From a bacterium HR26 (GTDB lineage: Bacteria; Chloroflexota; Chloroflexia; Thermomicrobiales; Thermomicrobiaceae), in contig BEIC01000003.1 in the NCBI GenBank assembly GCA_002898875.1, forward strand, positions 1-38,399: a stretch of 38,399 nt of DNA. The letters run 5' to 3'. The notes below the pieces were generated by a model. It saw only the letters and a list, made by a program, of their open reading frames with translations. It did no database searches and was not told where the DNA came from. Positions 17,109-37,499 of the stretch are shown here, one piece after another. The translations under genes and the position numbers were made by a program. Each line of letters begins with the position of its first letter. Position 1 is the stretch's first letter.

Positions 17109-17840
17109 GTGCGCATCCTGATCATCGCCGATATTCACGCGAATCTCGTGGCCCTCGAATCGGTCCTCGCCGCCGCTGGCACGGTCGACGATGTCTGGTG
17201 TTTAGGTGACATCGTCGGGTATGGTCCACGCCCCCGCGAGTGCGTGGAGCGCGTCAGGAGTATTGCGACCGAGGTCAGCGTGGTCGGCAACCACGACTGG
17301 GCCTGTCTGGGCCGGGCTGCCCTCGAGGGGTTCAACCCGATTGCCCAGTACGCGCTGCGCTGGACGATTGCCCAGCTTGGCCGCGAGCACCTGGCCTATC
17401 TCGAGGGGCTGCCGAACCGCGTGATCTCCGGAGCGTGCACCGTCGTGCACGGGAGTCCGCGGAACCCCGTGTGGGAGTACGTCTATAACGCGCATCTGGC
17501 TGCGGTCAACTTCAACTATTTCGACACAGCAATCTGCTTCTTCGGCCACACGCATGTGCCGTTCGTGATCCGCGAGCGGGAGGCGCTCCGTGGTCTGCCA
17601 CCTTACGCGCCGCGTCACGGTGACCGGATTCAGCTCGGTGACGACCGCTACATGATCAATCCCGGCGCGGTCGGCCAGCCACGCGACGGCGACCCCCGCG
17701 CTGCGTATGCGATCTTCGATCCTGACGAGGGCGTGGTGAGCTTCCACCGTGCACACTACGCGATCGAGCAGGTACAGGAGGATATGCGCACTGCCGGCCT
17801 TCCGGAGCCGCTGATTCGCCGCCTCGCGCTCGGGGTATAA
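17109..17840 (+). CDS. Calcineurin-like metallophosphoesterase
   Basis: MRILIIADIHANLVALE, VWCLGDIVGYGPRP, VVGNHDWACLG, VVHGSPRNP, CFFGHTHVPFV. GTG start. Confidence 0.92.
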   Translation: MRILIIADIHANLVALESVLAAAGTVDDVWCLGDIVGYGPRPRECVERVRSIATEVSVVGNHDWACLGRAALEGFNPIAQYALRWTIAQLGREHLAYLEGLPNRVISGACTVVHGSPRNPVWEYVYNAHLAAVNFNYFDTAICFFGHTHVPFVIREREALRGLPPYAPRHGDRIQLGDDRYMINPGAVGQPRDGDPRAAYAIFDPDEGVVSFHRAHYAIEQVQEDMRTAGLPEPLIRRLALGV

Positions 17841-18853: not shown

Positions 18854-19519
18854 ATGTACATCATCGTCGTTGGCGGCGGGAAAGTCGGCTATTACCTCAC
18901 CAAGACGCTGGTCAACGAGGGGTACGAGGTCTTCCTGATCGAGAAGAACCCGGCAAAGGTACAGGTCTATCGCGATCGGTTCGGCGCCATCGTCATGCAG
19001 GGCGACGGCGCGGAGGTGGCGACGCTGGCTGCGGCCGGTGCGGGGCGGGCCGACGTGGTCATCGCGGTCACTGGCGACGATGAGGACAACCTCGTCATCT
19101 GCCAGATGGCCCGCGAGCGCTTCGGGGTCCGCCGGACGATCGCTCGCGTGAACAACCCGAAGAACGAGGAGCTCTTCCGCAAGCTCGGCATCGACGTGAC
19201 GGTGAGCCAGACCAACGTCATTCTGAGTATCATCGAGCAGCAGATCCCGGAGCGCCCGTTCGTTCACCTCATGGCGCTGCGCCATGCCGACCTGGCCATC
19301 GTCGAGGCTAAGGTCTCCGAGGACTCGCCGGTGATCCATCAGCCGATCTGGCAAATCGAGCTGCCGCCGGAAGCGATCATCACCGCGATCCTGCGCCACG
19401 GGGATCTGATTATCCCAACCGGCCAGACCGTCATCGAGCCGGGCGACGAGCTGATCATCGTGACCAAGCAGCAGCGCGAGGCCGAGCTGCGCGAGCTGAT
19501 CACCGGCCCGGCGGCATAG
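18854..19519 (+). CDS. TrkA family (TrkA-N + TrkA-C) K+ uptake protein
   Basis: MYIIVVGGGKVGYYLTKTLVNEGYEVFLIEKNPAK; C-terminal IIPTGQTVIEPGDELIIVT TrkA-C signature. Confidence 0.92.
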   Translation: MYIIVVGGGKVGYYLTKTLVNEGYEVFLIEKNPAKVQVYRDRFGAIVMQGDGAEVATLAAAGAGRADVVIAVTGDDEDNLVICQMARERFGVRRTIARVNNPKNEELFRKLGIDVTVSQTNVILSIIEQQIPERPFVHLMALRHADLAIVEAKVSEDSPVIHQPIWQIELPPEAIITAILRHGDLIIPTGQTVIEPGDELIIVTKQQREAELRELITGPAA

Positions 19520-19667: not shown

Positions 19668-22589
19668 TCACACGCTGTGCCCCTCGGCGAGCAGCACGGC
19701 CACCGGCCAGCGCGCGAAGACCTGCGCCAGCGGCAGCCGCGGCGGCTCTCCCGTCGTCATCTCGACAACCTGCCCGGTCAACCGGCACTGCCAGCGGCGT
19801 GGTGCCCCGCCCGGTAGGATGAGCACCGTATCCTGCCAGCTCGGCGGCCCGAGCGGGTAGCTCCGGGTCGGCAGCCCATCCTCCCACGCGACCAGCCGGG
19901 CGGTGAAGCGCGGCACCGCCGTCAGGCTCCACATCTCACCCCGCCGGCGGGTGAACGCGACCACGAACTCCGCGCGCGACCCGTCGCCGGCTGCCGGGAG
20001 GTAGCTCCCGGCCGTGAATAGATCAGGGTAGTCTCGCCGCAGGTGCAGCAGCCGGGCCGTGAGGTGGAGCTTGATCCGGCCGTCTTCCCAGGTCTCGAGG
20101 AGCTCCTCCGCCAGCGCCGGCAGGTCGCCGGCTGCGTGCAACTGCCGGAGTGCGGCTTCCCGGCGGGCAAAGTCGACCGGCCCGCGGTTGTCGGGGTCGA
20201 CCAGCGAGAAGCACCAGAGCTCGCAGCCCTGGTAGAGGTCGGGCACGCCCGGCGCAGTCAGCTTGATTGCGGTCTGGGCCAGGCTGGCGAGGGCGCCGTG
20301 GAAGGCGACAGCCTGCCACAGGCGGCCGAAGTCTTCGCGGAAAGGCTCCGCGCGCCGGTCGGTCAGCAGGGCCTCGGCGAAGCGCACCAGCGCCTGCTCG
20401 TACGCCTCGTTCGGGTTGAGCCAGCTCGTGCGCAGCTTCGCTTCCCGCGCTGCCTTGACGAGATAGCCCTGGAGTCGCGGCAGGAAACCGGCCTGCTCGG
20501 CCGGGTCGAGCGGCCAGGCAGCGAGGAGCGATTGGTAGCAGAGCAGCTCCATGGCCGGGTCGGGGGCCGGCTCACCATCGACGATTGTGCGGAAGGGCGC
20601 AGCGTACTCGCGCCAGCGGCCGACCGCCGCCTGCCAGGCGTCCGGCAGATCGGCCAGGACACAGAGCCGGGCGCGCGCATCCTCGCTGCGCTTGGTGTCG
20701 TGGGTCGAGGTCGCGTTCAGGGTGTACGGCCAGTGCTCTTGCCGCGAGCGGCACCACCGGTGGAAGTCCTCGGGCGCCAGCGGCCCATCAGCCGGCTCGG
20801 CGCCGACCTCGTTGAGAGCCAGCAGGCGGACATCGCGGTAGTGCGCGGTGTCTTCTACCCCCTTCGCCATCGCCGCGCCGGTGAGCTGCTGCCAGCGGCG
20901 GACGAAGCCGAGCCAGTCCTCGCCGGGCCAGTCCTGGGCCAGCAGCACCAGCTTGAGGAAAGCGAGTGCCGCCTCGCCCTCCGGCCAGCGTTGCCTGGCC
21001 TCTGCCAGCGCCTGCTCGATGCATGCCTGGTCAGCCGGCCGCAGAGGCCGGTCGCTGCGGTAGGTGCGGTAGACCGGGAGCGTCGCGGTGACCTCGAACA
21101 GCGCCCGGCGCAGCTCGCCCACGGTGAGATCTCGCCCTTCCGGGCACAGCCGAGCGAGTTTCGCCAGCCGGCTAGCCAGCAGGTCCAGTTCGGCGCTGAA
21201 GAGCTCGTGGAGAACCTGCCGGCGTGCCTGGTCGGCGACTTCGGCAAAGGGCGGAACCTCGCTCGTCTGGTGCTCGCTGACCGGGCGCACGGTCACGCTG
21301 CCCGATGGATCCGCGGCCGTGAGCTCCGGCGCACTTGCCCGCCGCTCGACCTCGGCCCACGCTATCCCGGCAACCGACAGCGCGGTGTTGGCCGCGTATA
21401 GCCGCGCGCTCCCTTCCGGATGGAGGAAGAGTCGCGTCACCTGCCGCGCGAACTCGTACCCGGTCGTCCCGGCAACTGGCCACTCTTCCGGGAGCTCTTC
21501 GTCGCCGGTCAGGATCTTCTCGACCAGGATGTAACATGGCAGCTCCTGGCTCGCCGGCTGGTCGCCGAGCGCGTGCCACAAGCGTCGATGGAGCATCTCC
21601 AGGTAGCCGTCCGGGTCGGCCAGCCCGTCGATGTGGTCGATCCGGAGGCCGGTGACCTGGGCAGAGCGAACGAGGTCGACAATCAGGCGATGGGTGGCGT
21701 CGAAGACGAGCGGGTCTTCCACGCGCACCCCGGCGAGGTCGGCGATGTCGAAGAAGCGGCGATAGTTGAGCTGGCTGATGGTGCTGCGCCAGAACGCTGG
21801 CCGGTAGTGCTGGACTGCGATGAGCCGGTCGAGCCGCTGGGTCGCCTCCGCCCCAGTGCGCGGGTCGAAGCGGTCGAGCGCCGCGGAGATTGCCTGCTCC
21901 AGCTCGGGGAAGGCGGGTAGCAGCGCGCGGAGCTGGTGGGCCACCGCGTCAGGCGCCAGGACTCCCGCCTCCACCTGCCCGGCCAGCCGCTCGATGGCGC
22001 GGCGGAGCATTGGGTCGGAATGCTGCGGCAGCGTCTCAGTGACCGCTTCCAGCGCCATTCTCCAGCCGTGCCGGTTCAGTGGGAGACGGCGGACGTAGTA
22101 GTGGAGAGCGAAGCCGTCGTCGTCCCAGCCCAACTGCACCTCGCCGGCCCGGAGCGCCTCGGCGTAGCGCCGGCCGAGGAGCGGCAGCAGGAGCTGCCCC
22201 TCAAGACCCGGCCACGGAGGATCCCAGTCGATGTCGAAGAAGCGGGCATCCGGCGAGGCCCGGCCGTTCTGGAGTACGGCCCGCCAGCGCGGGTTCTCCT
22301 CGTGGGCTGCCTGGTGATTCGGCACGATGTCGAGCACGAGCCCCTGACCGTGCTCGCGGAGGGCCGCGCTCAGGCGGGCGAACCCTTCAGGCCCGCCGAG
22401 AGCGGAGCTGATCCGGGTCGGATCGGTCACGTCATAGCCGTGGGTGCTCCCGCTGCGGGCCTGGAAGATCGGCGAGAGGTAGAGGTCGGAGACACCGAGC
22501 GCGGCGAGATAGGGGACGATCGTGCGTGCCTGGTCGAAGCTCATCTCCGGGCCGAGCTGGAGCCGGTAGGTCGCCGCCGGGACGCGCAT
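19668..22589 (-). CDS. treY: Malto-oligosyltrehalose synthase
   Basis: MRVPAATYRLQLGPEMSFDQARTIVPYLAALGVSDLYLSPIFQARSGSTHGYDVTDPTRISSALGG, GLVLDIVPNHQA, TGLRIDHIDGLADP, ATSTHDTKRSEDARARL. ATG at 22589 preferred to the track start at 22652. Confidence 0.95.
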   Translation of the reverse strand: MRVPAATYRLQLGPEMSFDQARTIVPYLAALGVSDLYLSPIFQARSGSTHGYDVTDPTRISSALGGPEGFARLSAALREHGQGLVLDIVPNHQAAHEENPRWRAVLQNGRASPDARFFDIDWDPPWPGLEGQLLLPLLGRRYAEALRAGEVQLGWDDDGFALHYYVRRLPLNRHGWRMALEAVTETLPQHSDPMLRRAIERLAGQVEAGVLAPDAVAHQLRALLPAFPELEQAISAALDRFDPRTGAEATQRLDRLIAVQHYRPAFWRSTISQLNYRRFFDIADLAGVRVEDPLVFDATHRLIVDLVRSAQVTGLRIDHIDGLADPDGYLEMLHRRLWHALGDQPASQELPCYILVEKILTGDEELPEEWPVAGTTGYEFARQVTRLFLHPEGSARLYAANTALSVAGIAWAEVERRASAPELTAADPSGSVTVRPVSEHQTSEVPPFAEVADQARRQVLHELFSAELDLLASRLAKLARLCPEGRDLTVGELRRALFEVTATLPVYRTYRSDRPLRPADQACIEQALAEARQRWPEGEAALAFLKLVLLAQDWPGEDWLGFVRRWQQLTGAAMAKGVEDTAHYRDVRLLALNEVGAEPADGPLAPEDFHRWCRSRQEHWPYTLNATSTHDTKRSEDARARLCVLADLPDAWQAAVGRWREYAAPFRTIVDGEPAPDPAMELLCYQSLLAAWPLDPAEQAGFLPRLQGYLVKAAREAKLRTSWLNPNEAYEQALVRFAEALLTDRRAEPFREDFGRLWQAVAFHGALASLAQTAIKLTAPGVPDLYQGCELWCFSLVDPDNRGPVDFARREAALRQLHAAGDLPALAEELLETWEDGRIKLHLTARLLHLRRDYPDLFTAGSYLPAAGDGSRAEFVVAFTRRRGEMWSLTAVPRFTARLVAWEDGLPTRSYPLGPPSWQDTVLILPGGAPRRWQCRLTGQVVEMTTGEPPRLPLAQVFARWPVAVLLAEGHSV

Positions 22590-22597
22590 AGCCGGCC

Positions 22598-25018
22598 TCA
22601 CTCGACCGCGATCCAGAGCGCCTTGCAGAGCTGCCGGAAAGCCTGGATCCACTCCAGCGCCGCATCATCACCCCGCTCGTAGCGCCAGCTCATCTCCGGG
22701 TAGACCGTGTGCAAGACCTCGTAGACGATGTTCTGGACGAGCCAGGTGTTGACCGGTTCCTTGAGGCGCGGTGCGACCGATGACAGGCCGGTCAAGAGAC
22801 CCAGGAGCTCACGGTCCTCTGGGCTCACCCGCCAGCGCTCGGCGGCTCGCTCCAGCGCTCGCTGCAGGGCGTAGGCAAGCCCATGCTGGTCCAGGTCCAG
22901 GTGCCAGGTCTCAGCCTCGCTGAAGAGCCGATCGATCCGCTCGAAGTCGGGCTGTGGAGACTCGATCTCCCGGCGCAGATCGGCGTTGACGGTGAAGCGG
23001 GCCGCGGTCTGGAACGCCGGCGGGATCGGCACGCCGAGGTCGGCGAGAAAGCGCATGAGCGGCTGGCTATCCTCGTACAGATGGCGATACATCCCCTCGG
23101 CCTCTTGCAGCGTCGACTCGAGGATCAGATCGAGGATCTTCCGCTGCTCGTCGCGGAAGAGCGTCCGGAGCGAGTAGGTGGCCGGCCGGAAGTGCTCATC
23201 GAGCGCGCGGATCGTCTCCGGGATGTCGGCCCGCGCGAAGCTCTCGGTGAGCGCGTTCACCAGCTCCTGATACGCCCGCTCGTCATGGTCGCCTCGCACC
23301 CCGCTGATCACGTTGTGATCGCCGAGGTGGAGCGCAGCCACATTGAACACGGCTGATTCCTCCGTAATCAGCGATCGTACCTGGATCTGGCCGGTCAACA
23401 GGTGTGCCCGGCCCGCTTCCTGGACATCGAGCGCGAGCCGATCCACTTGGTAGCAGGCGACTGAGACGGACTCTGGGTAGCCTTCGAAGAGGGCGCTGAC
23501 CGCGTAGTGTGCCGCGACTTTGGGGAGGTCGACGCGCGCCGGGAGCACGAACCGCTCGTAGGCGACTCGTCCGTTGCCGATCTCGGGGATGTTGCTCGGT
23601 GCCTTCTCCAGGATCGCCAGGAACTGCTCCTCGAACCGGTTACCGAAGAGCTCCTCGGCGAGCTGGATCGCCCGACCGGCGTACTGGAGCACCTGCACCG
23701 TCTCGATGCCGGAGATCTCGTCGAAGAACCAGCCGCAGCTCGTGTACATCAACAGTGCGTGCCGCTGAAGCTCGAGGAGCTTGAGCGCCGTCACCCGCTC
23801 GTCCGGCTCGAGCGTGCGGCGCTGCCAGCGCTCCAGGAAGCGGGTGACGTTGTCCTGCGCGCGGTCGAGAATGACGCTGATGTAGTCGTCTCTGGCTGCC
23901 CAGGGATCGGTGAAGAGCTCGCTGCCCATTCGCTCGTACAGGGGGGCCAGCGTGTCGCGCAGCCAGTCGAGCGCCTCGCGCAGCGGCGCGCGCCACTCTT
24001 GAGTCCATCCGGGGTGCATACCGGTGTTGCACCCGCAGTTACTGCGCCAGCGCTCGACGCCGTGGGCGCAGCTCCAGGAGGTGAACTCCTGGACCTCAGC
24101 CTCCCAGGCCGGCGGATGCTGAGCCAGGTAGGCCGCGTAGTTTGTCAGCGCGACGTCGGAGCTGGACTCAATGCGCTCGAGCGCGAAGGCGAGCGCCATG
24201 TCGCCGAAGCGATGATGGTGGCCGTAGGTCTCCCCGTCGGTCGCCACATGGACGAGCGGCTCGCCCTTCGCGTCCCAGGCGGCCGCGAGGAGGCGCTGGG
24301 CGAAGCGCTCGCCGCTGTTGAGCAAGTCGCCGAAGGCGATCTCCCGCGAGATCGGCCCGTTGTAGAAGAAGACCACGATTGAGCGCCCGGAAGGCAGGCT
24401 GACCAGGTAGGGTCTGGTCGTATCCACTCGGCCATCGGAGACGTCCTGCCAGTCCCCGCCCTCGCGTGGCCTCACCCGCCTTGCCTGGTGCGGAGCGAGG
24501 ATGGTGAAGGCGATGCCGTGCTCGGCCAGGATGTCAAGCGTCTCGAGGTCGACGGCGGTCTCAGGCAGCCACATGCCGACCGGGGTGCGGCCGAAGCGTG
24601 CTTCGAAGTCGCGGATGCCCCAGATCACCTGGGTACGCTTGTCCCGCGAGTTGGCGAGGGGCATGATGATGTGGTTGTACGCCTGCGCCATCGCCGAACC
24701 GTGGCCGTCGAAGCGCACCTGGCTCTCACGGTCGGCCGCCAGGATCGCCTGGTAGACCGCCGGCTCCTGCTCGGCCAGCCAGGCCAGCAGCGTCGGGCCG
24801 AAGTTGAAGCTGATGCGGGCGTAGTTGTCGACGATCTTGACGATCCGTCCCTCGCTGTTGAGGATGCGCGACCAGGCATTCGGCCCGTAGCACTCGGCAG
24901 TTATCCGCGCATTCCAGTCGTGGTAGGGATACGCCGAGTCCTGGAGCTCGACGACTTCGAGCCAGGGATTCTCGCGCGGTGGCTGGTAGAAGTGACCATG
25001 TATACAAATATGCTTCAT
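22598..25018 (-). CDS. Glycoside hydrolase family 57 protein (DUF3536-type C-terminus)
   Basis: MKHICIHGHFYQPPRENPWLEVVE, VGMWLPETAVDLETLDIL, HVATDGETYGHHHRFGDMAL, AARDDYISVILDRAQDN: GH57 motifs. Confidence 0.9.
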   Translation of the reverse strand: MKHICIHGHFYQPPRENPWLEVVELQDSAYPYHDWNARITAECYGPNAWSRILNSEGRIVKIVDNYARISFNFGPTLLAWLAEQEPAVYQAILAADRESQVRFDGHGSAMAQAYNHIIMPLANSRDKRTQVIWGIRDFEARFGRTPVGMWLPETAVDLETLDILAEHGIAFTILAPHQARRVRPREGGDWQDVSDGRVDTTRPYLVSLPSGRSIVVFFYNGPISREIAFGDLLNSGERFAQRLLAAAWDAKGEPLVHVATDGETYGHHHRFGDMALAFALERIESSSDVALTNYAAYLAQHPPAWEAEVQEFTSWSCAHGVERWRSNCGCNTGMHPGWTQEWRAPLREALDWLRDTLAPLYERMGSELFTDPWAARDDYISVILDRAQDNVTRFLERWQRRTLEPDERVTALKLLELQRHALLMYTSCGWFFDEISGIETVQVLQYAGRAIQLAEELFGNRFEEQFLAILEKAPSNIPEIGNGRVAYERFVLPARVDLPKVAAHYAVSALFEGYPESVSVACYQVDRLALDVQEAGRAHLLTGQIQVRSLITEESAVFNVAALHLGDHNVISGVRGDHDERAYQELVNALTESFARADIPETIRALDEHFRPATYSLRTLFRDEQRKILDLILESTLQEAEGMYRHLYEDSQPLMRFLADLGVPIPPAFQTAARFTVNADLRREIESPQPDFERIDRLFSEAETWHLDLDQHGLAYALQRALERAAERWRVSPEDRELLGLLTGLSSVAPRLKEPVNTWLVQNIVYEVLHTVYPEMSWRYERGDDAALEWIQAFRQLCKALWIAVE

Positions 25019-25117: not shown

Positions 25118-26965
<1,848 letters not shown>

Positions 26966-27043
26966 CGTGATCGCTCCCTTCATCCCTCTGACGACGTCTG
27001 GCTACGCCTGCCGGTAGCAAGCCCAGCGCAGCCGGGAGAAGGT

Positions 27044-28965
<1,922 letters not shown>

Positions 28966-28969
<4 letters not shown>

Positions 28970-31013
28970 GCCTCACCCCCTTGTCGTCGCAGCTGATCTA
29001 TGTGCGTCAGCAGTGCCCGCAGGGCGGCGGAGCCGGTGAAGTCTTCGAGCGCGTAGCGCGCCTTGCGACGCCAGTTCGGTTGCTCCAGGCCGGTGCCAGG
29101 CCGGTTCTGCGGCTCGGTCTCCAACCACAGGTCTTCGAGATTGATCACGAGCGCCTGAGCGGGGCTGGCGGCGAGGAAGGTCAGGAAGCCGTGAAGCGCG
29201 GCGAGCGCTTCGTCCCCTTCGACGGCGGTGAGACAGCCTCGCTGCCGTAGCCAAGCCAGCAACCGCTGCCGCTCCTCAGCAGGCCAGGACTCCCAGAGGG
29301 CGGCGAACGGCGGCAGGTCGTGCGTGTCCAGGCAGGCGAGCGAGTTCCGTGGTGGGGATTGGGCCTGGCCACCGGGCCTCAGCTCGAAGGGTAGGACGTA
29401 CATCCGGAGCAGCCCGTGCCGTGCCATGGCCCGGCGTACCGCGCCCGGGACCGTGCCGAGGTCCTCACCGACGACGATGCAGCGGCAGCGGTGCGACTCG
29501 AGCGCCAGCACGGCGTACATCTCTTCGGCTGGGTAGCGGATGTAGGCACCATCCCGGCCGTTGCTGCCAGCCGGCACGAGGTACAGCCGGTGCAGCCCCA
29601 TCACGTGATCGATTCTGAGCATGCCGGCGTGGCACAGATGATGGCGGAGGCAAGCTCGGAGGTAACTGTAGCCGTCTTCCCGCTGCCGCTCTGGGTGCAG
29701 CGGTGGGAAGCCCCACACTTGGCCCTCCTCGAAGAACGGGTCAGGAGGCGCGCCGGCGCTGACGCCCTGGAGGAAGAGATCGCGGAATCGCCAGGTGTCG
29801 AACCCATCCGGATGGACGCCGACCGGCAGGTCGAGGTAGAGCCCCAGCCCGTCCTGACCGCTGCGCTGCGCGAGGTGCTGCACCTGCTGCTCGGCTGCCC
29901 ACTGCACGTAGAGATGGTAGCGGGCGACGGCGGGGTCGCCGCCGGTGCGCTGCCCGCTGCGCAGGGGTTCCGGCCAGGCGGACCAGCCTGCGCGGTAACG
30001 CTCGACCGTGGCTCGGAAGGCAGCGTATCGCTCGGCTTCCGGGTGTGCGGCACGCCAGGCTTCGAGCTCCTCGCGCCGGGGGCCGGGCGTCTCCCAGCAC
30101 TGGTGGGCCAAGAGCTCCAGCACGCGCCGTCGCAGGCGCATCCCTGCCTGGTAGTCGACCAAGCGCTCGCTGCGGAGACGGCGGAGCTCCTCCTGGAAGT
30201 CGCGGGAGGCCACGAGGTCCTGAGCAGCACGGCTAGCCTGGAATTCCGGGAGCGCGGTCACATCGAGGTAGAACTCATTCCAGAAGAGGCGGCTGACCGG
30301 GGTGTAAGGGCTGATCTCGAACGGCTCATCGAGATAGGACGCCAGGAGCGGCAGCGTGCCAGTGAACTGCCCTCCCTGGCGTTTTGTCCAGATCAGCAGG
30401 TCGGCGAGGTCACTGAAGTTGCCGGCGCTCCAGCTTCGATCGCTGGTCAACGCGTACAGCGGCAGGAAGGTGCCCCAGGCACGCGCCTGCTCACCGCCGG
30501 GCTGCCAGGCCCGGCCCGGCGCGGCGATGACCGTTGCGGTAGCTAGCCCACCGTCGGGGAACTGGAGGCTCAGCCGGTGGTACCCCCAGGGGAGCCCCTT
30601 GGGCAACGGGAGCGAGCGGACGACGTAGCGACGGCCGTCGATCGACCCCGAGCCGGTGACTGGCAGTTGGCCCAGGTCCGCGTGCAGCTCCCGGCTCGAC
30701 CCGTCCTCGAGCGCGAGCTGGGCGGCGAGCTGCCCGCCGTCGAGCTCGGACGGCAGCCGCAGGAGCAGCTTTGCCGGCTCATCGTCCCAGGCGACCACCA
30801 CCGGCTCGCAGCGGCGGCTCCACTGCTCAACGTCGCGAGCTCGGAGCAGCTCAGGGGCTTCGTCGGGTCGCTCGATCGGGATGCCGAGCGCTCGCAGGAT
30901 GGCCAGCAACGCCTCAGGGCGTGCGACCTGGCGCTGTCCTCGGATATCGCGATAGGCAATCTGGATGCCGTGGGAGAAAGCGAGCTGGCGAAGCTCTCGG
31001 AACCCCGTCGATC

Positions 31014-31017
<4 letters not shown>
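28966..31017 (-). CDS. malQ: 4-alpha-glucanotransferase (GH77)
   Basis: [64 protein letters not shown]. 4-nt ATGA overlaps with both neighbours. Confidence 0.95.
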
Positions 31018-34379
<3,362 letters not shown>

Positions 34380-34400: not shown

Positions 34401-36422
34401 CTAGAGGTAGTACTCGAAGTCTTGTTCAGTCCGCACCCGCCGGCGCAGGCGGAAGATATGAGCTGGCAGGATCTGCGGGTCCAGCTCGACGTAATTCGTC
34501 GGCCCGTGCCAGAGGTACCGGCTGTCGCTCAGCAGGTCATGCACCTGGTACGGGTGGAGCGGATCGACGTTCAGGTCTTCCAGCGGGAGCGTCACCCAGC
34601 CGGACTGGGTATGGTATGGGTCCAGGTTGACCACCGTCAGGATCACGTTGCTTAAGTCGTCGGTGGTCTTGGTGTACGCGATCAACTCAGGGTTGTCGAT
34701 CTGGTGGAAGCGCAGGTTCCAATCGCGCTGCAGGGCTGGGTTCTCCCGCCGGATGCGGTTGACGCGCGCGATCAGCGGCGCCAGGCTGTGCGGCGCCTCC
34801 AGATCCCAGTGGCGAATCTCGTACTTCTCCGAGTTCAGGTACTCCTCGCTGCCCGGCGCCAGCGGCACGTGCTCGCACAGCTCGAAGGCCGGCCCGTAGA
34901 TGCCGTAGCTGGCCCCCAGCGTGGCGGCGAGCACCAGCCGGGCGATGAAGGCCGGTCTCCCACCGTGCTGGAGGTACTCGGTGAGGATGTCGGGCGTATT
35001 GGGCCAGAGGTTCGGGCGGAAGAACTCGCGCAGCTCGGTCTGGGTCAGCTCGGTGAAGTACTGCTCCAGTTCCCACTTCGTGTTGCGCCAGGCGAAGTAG
35101 GTGTAGGACTGGGTGAAGCCGAGCTTGGCCAGGTGGTACATCACCTTCGGGCGGGTGAACGCCTCAGAGAGGAAGATCGTCTCCGGATAATCGCGCTTGA
35201 TCTCGGCGATCAGCCATTCCCAGAACCGGAAAGGCTTGGTGTGCGGGTTGTCCACCCGGAAGATGCGCACCCCGTGCTGAATCCAGAAGAGCACGACCCG
35301 CTTCAGCTCGTCCCATAGCTCGCGCCAGTGCTCGGTCTCGAAATCGAACGGGTAGATGTCCTGGTACTTCTTGGGCGGATTCTCCGCGTACTGGACCGTG
35401 CCGTCGGGGCGACGGCGGAACCACTCCGGATGCTGCCGCACGTATGGATGGTCCGGCGAGCACTGGAAGGCGAGGTCGAGCGCGACCTCGATGCCGAGCT
35501 GCTGCGCTCGCTCGACGAAGCGGCGAAAATCGTCCAGCGTGCCGAGCGCCGGATGGATCGCGTCGTGCCCACCCTCCTCGGCTCCGATAGCCCAGGGGCT
35601 GCCTGGATCGTCCGGCCCCGCGACCAGGGTGTTGTTCCGTCCCTTGCGGTTGGTCCGGCCGATCGGGTGGATCGGCGGGAGGTAGAGCACGTCGAACCCC
35701 ATGTTGGCGATGTAGGGCAACCGCGCCTCGCAGTCGCGGAAGGTGCCATGACGGCCAGGCTCCGGTGAGCACGACCGTGGGAACATCTCGTACCAGGTGC
35801 TGAAGCGTGCACGCTCGCGGTCGACGGTTACCCGCAGCGTGTGCTGGTACTGGCTGGCGAACGGGCGGTCATCGTAGCGGGCCATCAGCTCGGCTAGCTC
35901 CGGTTCGAGCGCGAGCTCGGCATGCTCCTGCCCTTCGCGGAGCCGCGCGGCATAAGAGCGCAGCAGCTCACCATCGGCTTCTCCAGCGCGCGCCGCGGCT
36001 GTCTCGATCAGCTCGGCGCCGATCAGCAGGTCGACCGTGACGTCCTGCTCGGCTTGCAGCCGCTTGCGCAGGTCGCGTGCCCAGGTCTGGAACCGGTCGA
36101 CCCAGGCCAGTACCGTGTACTCGTAGGTCCCCAGCTCCACGACCGTGAACATCCCGCGCCAGCGATCGTTCTCGACCAGTGCCATCGGTGCTTCGTCCCA
36201 GTCCGGCTGATGCGCGTGGCGATAGCGCAGGACGGCCGTGACCGCGTCGTGACCATCGGCGAAGATATCGGCCTCGACGACCACCGGCTCGCCGATGGTG
36301 CGCTTGATCGCGAACCGCCCGCAGTCGATCTCCGGGCTGACGCGCGCGATGACGACGCGCTGCCGGCCTTCCGCCGGGAACTGCTCGGCGCTGCTCGCTC
36401 GACTCCGAGGCACCTCAGCCAC
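34401..36422 (-). CDS. glgE: Alpha-1,4-glucan:maltose-1-phosphate maltosyltransferase
   Basis: RCSPEPGRHGTFRDCEARLPYIANMGFDVLYLPPIHPIGRTNRKGRNNTLVAGPDDPGSPWAIG, VRIFRVDNPHTKPFRFWEWLI, FLSEAFTRPKVMYHLAKLGFTQSYTYFAWRNTKWEL: GlgE motifs. GTG start. Confidence 0.96.
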   Translation of the reverse strand: MAEVPRSRASSAEQFPAEGRQRVVIARVSPEIDCGRFAIKRTIGEPVVVEADIFADGHDAVTAVLRYRHAHQPDWDEAPMALVENDRWRGMFTVVELGTYEYTVLAWVDRFQTWARDLRKRLQAEQDVTVDLLIGAELIETAAARAGEADGELLRSYAARLREGQEHAELALEPELAELMARYDDRPFASQYQHTLRVTVDRERARFSTWYEMFPRSCSPEPGRHGTFRDCEARLPYIANMGFDVLYLPPIHPIGRTNRKGRNNTLVAGPDDPGSPWAIGAEEGGHDAIHPALGTLDDFRRFVERAQQLGIEVALDLAFQCSPDHPYVRQHPEWFRRRPDGTVQYAENPPKKYQDIYPFDFETEHWRELWDELKRVVLFWIQHGVRIFRVDNPHTKPFRFWEWLIAEIKRDYPETIFLSEAFTRPKVMYHLAKLGFTQSYTYFAWRNTKWELEQYFTELTQTELREFFRPNLWPNTPDILTEYLQHGGRPAFIARLVLAATLGASYGIYGPAFELCEHVPLAPGSEEYLNSEKYEIRHWDLEAPHSLAPLIARVNRIRRENPALQRDWNLRFHQIDNPELIAYTKTTDDLSNVILTVVNLDPYHTQSGWVTLPLEDLNVDPLHPYQVHDLLSDSRYLWHGPTNYVELDPQILPAHIFRLRRRVRTEQDFEYYL

Positions 36423-36516: not shown

Positions 36517-36617
36517 GTATCGTCGGGGACGCGAGGAGCATCGATTGTCTCCTCTTGATCCTAGCAAACTGTGCGGGGGCGTTGGCGATCATGCAGTGTG
36601 CCTGGAAGGAGGGCGGG

Positions 36618-37376
36618 ATGCGGGTCGCGGTGATCTCTGATACGCACGGCAACCTCGCAGCACTGGACGCCGTGCTCGCTGAACTCGACGCGACCGGACC
36701 GTACGACGCAGTGGTGATGGGCGGCGACTTCGCGTTCGGTGGCCCGCGCCCGGCCGAGTGCATCGATCGTATTCGGGAGCGCGGCTTCCCGGCAGTGCGG
36801 GGCAACACCGACGAGTTCATCGTCGAGCTCGCCACCGGAGGCAGGATACCGGCGAAGGTCGCGCACGAGTCGCAGCGTCACACGGCCTCGGAGCCGATGC
36901 TGCAGCGCTACCGCTGGGCGGTCGAGCGCCTGGCGGCAGAGCAGATCGAGTACCTGGCCAACCTGCCGCTGGCCCTTGTGATCCCGGCGCCGGCAGGCCG
37001 GGCGCTCACGGTGGTGCACGCGACGCCGTGGAACGCGCACGATACCGTGCAGGCAGGCGCTCCGGAGGAGCTGGCTCGCCGGATGCTGGACCAGGCCGGT
37101 GGCCAGGCGCTCGCCTACGGCCACATCCACGTGCAGTACCGGCGATGGGTCGATGGGCGGCTTCTGGCCGCAGTCGGCAGCGTTGGGCTGCCATTCGACG
37201 GTGACCAGCGAGCCGCCTACGCCGTCTTCACGCTCGGCGAAGACGGCTGGTCGGTGGAGTTTCGTCGCGTCGCCTACAACGTGGAGCGAGCCGTCGAGGA
37301 GGTCCTCGCCTCCGGAATGCCGGGGGCCGAGGCTCAGGCGTCGATCCTGCGCACGGCGAGACCACCCGGCGCGTAG
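36618..37376 (+). CDS. Metallophosphoesterase family protein (YfcE/MJ0936-like)
   Basis: MRVAVISDTHGNLAALDAVLAEL, VVMGGDFAFGGPRP, AVRGNTDEFIVEL, YGHIHVQYRR. ATG 36618, internal to track ORF 35922-37376. Confidence 0.88.
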   Translation: MRVAVISDTHGNLAALDAVLAELDATGPYDAVVMGGDFAFGGPRPAECIDRIRERGFPAVRGNTDEFIVELATGGRIPAKVAHESQRHTASEPMLQRYRWAVERLAAEQIEYLANLPLALVIPAPAGRALTVVHATPWNAHDTVQAGAPEELARRMLDQAGGQALAYGHIHVQYRRWVDGRLLAAVGSVGLPFDGDQRAAYAVFTLGEDGWSVEFRRVAYNVERAVEEVLASGMPGAEAQASILRTARPPGA

Positions 37377-37499
37377 CAGATTGGGCGTGGCGAGGCAGCG
37401 GCGCGACGCTGCCCCACGTGTGCTAGATGGCACTGGTGGGGCGCCAGGTAGGAACTGCCACCTTGGCCCGAGCGGCAGGCTCACGCGATTCTGAGGAGC

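Follow-up and report, generated by a model that had tools for sequence, protein, structure and literature searches.

Trehalose synthesis from glycogen by TreY and TreZ normally needs GlgP and TreX for the supply of linear chains (PMC11046441). The GH57 protein discussed here shares with TreX/GlgX its place in treYZ clusters and, presumably, the supply of linear malto-oligosaccharides to TreY, but TreX/GlgX has a GH13 fold and sequence, is an alpha-1,6 debranching enzyme and has no sequence relation to GH57. A closer counterpart is PoGH57 (WP_137759307.1) from Pontibacter sp. SGAir0037, a DUF3536 enzyme that was purified by Bax and Jurak (PMC11206854). In the accessible part of that paper, PoGH57 has low activity on amylose and DP18, trims alpha-1,4 branches above DP6, raises DP3-DP4 linear chains and leaves the number of branches unchanged, and together with its GH13 branching enzyme it gives shorter branches. 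The authors concluded that it has a 4-alpha-glucanotransferase/hydrolytic action; replacement of TreX is not raised in that part of the text. Both PoGH57 and the protein studied here have DUF3536 and the CSR motifs HGHFY and ETYGHH, and PoGH57 is likewise listed between TreZ and TreY. Its cluster also holds TreS, GlgE and GH77, and a GH13_9 branching enzyme is encoded on the opposite strand. However, it comes from another phylum and its cluster sits within a SusC/D locus, the two proteins being likened through their motifs and gene company. The GH57 "non-specified amylases" (Martinovicova and Janecek 2018, PMC6037648) average 785 aa and possess the same FF, T/S and Glu/Asp pair, although that group was defined without gene context and a single member of it has been characterised (Wang et al. 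2011, in PMC6037648). The treZ-GH57-treY arrangement has thus been published for one genome, that of Pontibacter, as far as the accessible text of PMC11206854 goes. What is new here is the breadth of its conservation, the fusions to TreY, the contrast with GlgX and an invariant Cys/His motif.

The window, that is the whole stretch of 38,399 nt that was analysed, comes from bacterium HR26 (contig BEIC01000003.1). Its minus strand carries seven closely spaced genes between 19668 and 36422 in the order glgE > treS-mak > malQ > glgB > treZ > GH57 > treY (Table 1), and all members of the GlgE pathway (glgE, treS, maltokinase and glgB) occur together. A preliminary description had placed an intact 806-aa GH57 protein between treY and treZ, and the reading frame, the Pfam matches and the TIGR02401 and TIGR02402 flanks bear this out. 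The same description had the GH57 gene starting 8-9 nt before treY. The 8-nt spacing is right, but this is where the GH57 gene ends: its TGA (22600-22598) is followed by 8 nt and then by the treY ATG at 22589, which was taken as the start instead of GTG 22652. Since a GAGG overlaps the GH57 stop at this distance from the treY ATG, coupled translation of the two genes is plausible from the sequence. The gap between the treZ stop and the GH57 ATG is 99 nt. Scans for promoters and terminators and an Rfam scan gave nothing above chance.

Table 1. Features of the glucan-trehalose operon and of its GH57 protein (positions in the window).
Feature	Position	Strand	Evidence
glgE, maltose-1-phosphate maltosyltransferase	34401..36422	-	PF11896 208 bits, PF21702 106 bits
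treS-mak fusion, trehalose synthase + maltokinase	31014..34379	-	TIGR02456 935 bits, TIGR02457 509 bits
malQ, GH77 4-alpha-glucanotransferase	28966..31017	-	PF02446 317 bits, TIGR00217 above cut-off
glgB, GH13 branching enzyme	27044..28969	-	PRK05402 1003 bits
treZ, malto-oligosyltrehalose trehalohydrolase	25118..26983	-	TIGR02402 766 bits
GH57 + DUF3536 enzyme, 806 aa	22598..25018	-	Pfam PF03065 + PF12055; AF2 model
treY, malto-oligosyltrehalose synthase	19668..22589	-	TIGR02401 894 bits
GH57 stop TGA / treY ATG junction, 8 nt, GAGG over stop	22589..22600	-	sequence
E153, catalytic nucleophile position (GMWLPE)	24560..24562	-	invariant 79/79; role per PMC6037648
D261, proton donor position (ATDGETYGHH)	24236..24238	-	invariant 79/79
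Fifth GH57 conserved region YTSCGWFFDE, C428 + FF signature	23717..23746	-	C428 78/79, FF 79/79
C317-x-H319 ... C328-x-C330 Cys/His motif	24029..24070	-	79/79 full-length, 6/6 short relatives

The GH57 reading frame opens with ATG and has no internal stops. Pfam scans match Glyco_hydro_57 to residues 108-303 (7.2e-18) and DUF3536 to residues 338-621 (1.3e-118, 396 bits against a cut-off of 25), the latter over the full length of the profile (positions 1-284 of 284). An AF2 model built from 79 sequences has a mean pLDDT of 93. The predicted fold, an incomplete TIM barrel followed by a helical bundle, is that of GH57 enzymes, and the first 25 PDB matches of the model are all GH57 enzymes. The best match and nearest solved fold is 4cmr (TM-score 0.61 on target length, 16% identity, about 600 residues). 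This is Py04_0872, a maltose-forming amylase from Pyrococcus sp. ST04, but it is archaeal and exo-acting, and it is too distant for specificity to be transferred. The idea that DUF3536 is an extra, non-GH57 domain was rejected because the profile corresponds, by predicted secondary structure, to the usual post-barrel helical bundle and, in addition, a beta domain. Viral collections searched for GH57 relatives held one partial match only.

Four motifs in the protein (HGHFYQPP, WLPE, DGETYGHHH and AARDDYI) had been described as catalytic in type and apparently intact. This holds for WLPE, which contains the Glu of CSR-3 (E153), and for DGETYGHHH, which contains the Asp of CSR-4 (D261), both residues being present in all 79 relatives. 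It does not hold for AARDDYI, which lies outside the GH57 catalytic regions and whose D378 is found in only 51/96; the true fifth region is YTSCGWFF. In the GH57 logos, position 23 is Lys in 4-alpha-glucanotransferases and Leu in branching enzymes, and the non-specified amylases are marked by T/S at this position and FF at positions 35-36 (PMC6037648). In our own mapping of residues to the logos, which takes the catalytic Asp and the last residues of CSR-5 as anchors, position 23 is T in 56 and S in 23 of the 79 relatives and CSR-5 ends in FF in 79/79, so each of the two marks is found in every relative. By this fingerprint the GH57 protein is assigned to the non-specified amylase group; the activity assays are those of a relative, PoGH57. 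Identity as a 4-alpha-glucanotransferase was rejected because position 23 of CSR-4 is T/S where Lys is required. A GH57 branching enzyme was rejected as well, HGHFY and ETYGHH standing in place of HxHLP (CSR-1) and ELF(Y)GHW (CSR-4).

Besides the catalytic pair, C317, H319, C328 and C330 (79/79) and C428 (78/79) are conserved, and all five are also kept in a short (~500 aa) DUF3536 branch (6/6). These residues could form a metal site or disulfides. A literature search found no paper on a GH57 CxH...CxC motif with a Cys in CSR-5. The five residues span 24070-23735 on the minus strand. The short branch (L017-L030 and L045-L050) covers profile positions of about 4-153 only, and its copy in L048 directly adjoins GlgE and TreS.

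DUF3536 is found in 33 of 121 genomes of the window's phylum, about 15 of them with the full-length type. GH57 stands directly before TreY in 10/26 TreY genomes of this phylum; in most of these TreZ precedes it, and GlgE, TreS-Mak and GlgB often do so too. Of the 28 TreY genomes in another phylum (around L071, Desulfobacterales), 15 have GH57 next to TreY and 22 have a full-length copy. Sixty named loci with adequate flanks were counted from the best 80 of 578, a choice that leans toward the window's lineage: 23 of them have TreZ upstream and 20 have TreY downstream, GlgB precedes GH57 in 15 and a GH77 MalQ follows it in 12, and GlgX was found within 10 kb in 0/60. The order TreZ-GH57-TreY was found in about a dozen phyla. 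The TreY-linked records are MAGs, of which single taxon labels may be wrong, and are labelled Chloroflexota, Desulfobacterota-type, Verrucomicrobia, Nitrospiraceae, Planctomycetota, Omnitrophota, Gemmatimonadetes, KSB1, Actinobacteria, Elusimicrobia and Desulfuromonadales, with one Thermoplasmata archaeon. Such recurrence over many phyla is far more than chance would give. On the GH57 tree, adjacency to TreY has to change state about 23 times and is therefore easily gained or lost. TreY is absent and GlgB or MalQ is nearby in 28/99 relatives, which shows that the role of GH57 is broader than supplying TreY, and another 30/99 lack all cycle genes in their vicinity.

Several other arrangements were seen. 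L102, L107, L113, L114, L119 and L130, from anammox Planctomycetes, Nitrospira and Omnitrophota MAGs, have GlgB upstream, then GH57, then a GH77 4-alpha-glucanotransferase, with no TreY. In G187 (C5:36586-39920, with 36586-37434 and 38487-39920) a second full-length DUF3536 copy lies about 1 kb from GlgA. L148 and L151 (G061 and G012) have a glgE-treS-glgB-treZ-treY cluster without GH57, and GlgX is elsewhere in the genome.

GH57 and TreY also occur as a single frame, GH57 first, joined by a short linker. Such fusions were found in L031 (1853 aa), L036 (1821 aa, on the same contig as L087) and L088 (9995-15478, a Planctomycetota MAG); two of the three fusion-bearing genomes belong to Chloroflexota and one to Planctomycetota. 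The fused state takes 2 changes on the GH57 tree, and an independent origin of all three was rejected for this reason; a single origin is possible.

The preliminary description had noted the absence of a GlgX/TreX-type GH13 debranching enzyme, and this extends from the window to the whole assembly, which is 81% complete. Searches of the genome for GlgX gave weak matches only, to TreZ, GlgB and similar proteins, and TIGR02100 (TreX/GlgX) was not among the NCBIfam matches in the window. The treX member of the TreX-TreY-TreZ pathway was likewise not found in this 81% complete assembly, nor was a match to glycogen phosphorylase. Other contigs carry GlgA and a GDE_N_bis/MGH1-like protein of ambiguous specificity, and there is one further GH13 protein. 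The L056 locus, which carries the label uncultured Thermomicrobiaceae, repeats the order of the seven genes, and its GH57 is 92% identical; this places the window in Chloroflexota or a near relative of that phylum. The genome behind L056 gave no matches to GlgX or glycogen phosphorylase.

A survey for linkage to treY/treZ and for anticorrelation with treX had been proposed. The linkage was found in many phyla; the anticorrelation is present in the raw counts and is not significant when the TreY tree is taken into account. GlgX occurs in 9/32 treY genomes with full-length GH57 versus 18/22 without it (n=54, Fisher p 2e-4, uncorrected), and it is linked to treY in 1/26 GH57-bearing versus 11/29 GH57-less neighbourhoods (p 0.003), the exception being G238, where both are present. 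On the TreY tree most GlgX-linked treY genes fall in one branch and the contrast tracks a deep split; in independent-pair tests on this tree it is not significant. As a pattern the contrast is real, though few events underlie it. Strict exclusion of GlgX at the genome level was rejected on the pair tests and on Chloroflexus-type genomes, which carry both genes, and the case for GH57 as a strict replacement of TreX is weak.

The reading we favour, with a probability of about 0.6, is that the GH57 protein is a cytoplasmic amylase-type enzyme that trims outer glucan chains to linear malto-oligosaccharides within a glucan-trehalose cycle. The enzyme would attack a glycogen-like glucan made by GlgE and GlgB (and GlgA) at alpha-1,4 bonds of its outer chains and give short linear malto-oligosaccharides, the lengths of which MalQ would even out. 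TreY would then isomerise the reducing end, TreZ would release trehalose, and TreS-Mak and GlgE would return maltose to the polymer, so that the operon may encode a closed cycle. GH57 would take the place of TreX/GlgX in the cluster and in the supply of linear oligosaccharides, alpha-1,6 cutting not necessarily included. The sequence, operon, adjacency, fusions, catalytic residues and fingerprint were observed here. Trimming of alpha-1,4 chains to DP3-4 is carried over by analogy from PoGH57, as described in the accessible part of PMC11206854, and the substrate, the direction of flux and the coupling to TreY in this organism are inferred. Taken with the need of TreYZ for GlgP and TreX, the PoGH57 assay favours alpha-1,4 trimming that supplies TreY and MalQ. 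Conserved adjacency and the three fusions support a functional tie to TreY/TreZ, usually without GlgX nearby. Against the trimming role count the 9 GlgX carriers, the two sets of loci without TreY, the null pair tests, the frequent changes in adjacency and, from the same part of PMC11206854, the low activity of PoGH57 and the 4-alpha-glucanotransferase label given by its authors.

It is rather unlikely that GH57 acts instead in glucan building, where it would trim or rearrange the chains of GlgE/GlgA and GlgB into a denser, short-branched polymer, with adjacency to TreY reflecting a shared operon only. The loci where GH57 accompanies GlgB or MalQ in the absence of TreY, the second copy beside GlgA in G187 and the shorter branches reported for PoGH57 with its branching enzyme fit such a role, but the fusions are to TreY and none is to GlgB, GH57 prefers the TreZ-TreY interval and GlgX is seldom found near a treY cluster that is linked to GH57.

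The roles suggested at the outset were debranching, branch trimming or an amylase that feeds TreY. The fingerprints and the PoGH57 assay point to the latter two. A true alpha-1,6 debranching enzyme, pullulanase- or glucan-maltohydrolase-like and an outright replacement of TreX, is improbable. The lower frequency of GlgX with GH57 is consistent with it, as is the maltose-forming nature of 4cmr, given that GH57 glucan maltohydrolases are said to cleave off maltose units at alpha-1,4 as well as alpha-1,6 bonds; however, that fold match is weak, the number of branches stayed constant with PoGH57 in the accessible part of PMC11206854, and a separate GH133-type debranching enzyme, needless to a debrancher, adjoins GH57 in L085 and G209. 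That GH57 has no direct functional link to TreY and acts on maltodextrins in general, its gene being one of those carried by alpha-glucan clusters, is highly improbable, since the relatives without cycle genes agree with it but the fusions and the multi-phylum TreZ-GH57-TreY order do not.

If GH57 does replace the GlgP/TreX step, this would explain glycogen mobilisation in TreX-less Chloroflexota, Desulfobacterota and others, DUF3536, a domain still called unknown, would gain a function, and the natural GH57-TreY fusion would be a ready tool for one-pot trehalose production. A broader proposal can be offered tentatively: a widespread second route from glycogen to trehalose may exist in which a GH57 whose invariant Cys/His site possibly binds a metal, and which is fused to TreY in some genomes, hands oligosaccharides directly to TreY, so that TreX/GlgX is no longer needed.

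Outside the operon, a gene with a calcineurin-like phosphoesterase domain (36618-37376, plus strand) is divergent from glgE. Past the downstream end of the operon lie a second phosphoesterase-like frame (17109-17840, plus strand) and, close to it, a TrkA-like frame (18854-19519), both identified by eye. Between 11499 and 15691 on the plus strand, genes for a 2,4-diaminopentanoate dehydrogenase-like protein, an M20 peptidase-like protein and a class-III aminotransferase stand in a row and are perhaps involved in ornithine or diamino acid breakdown.
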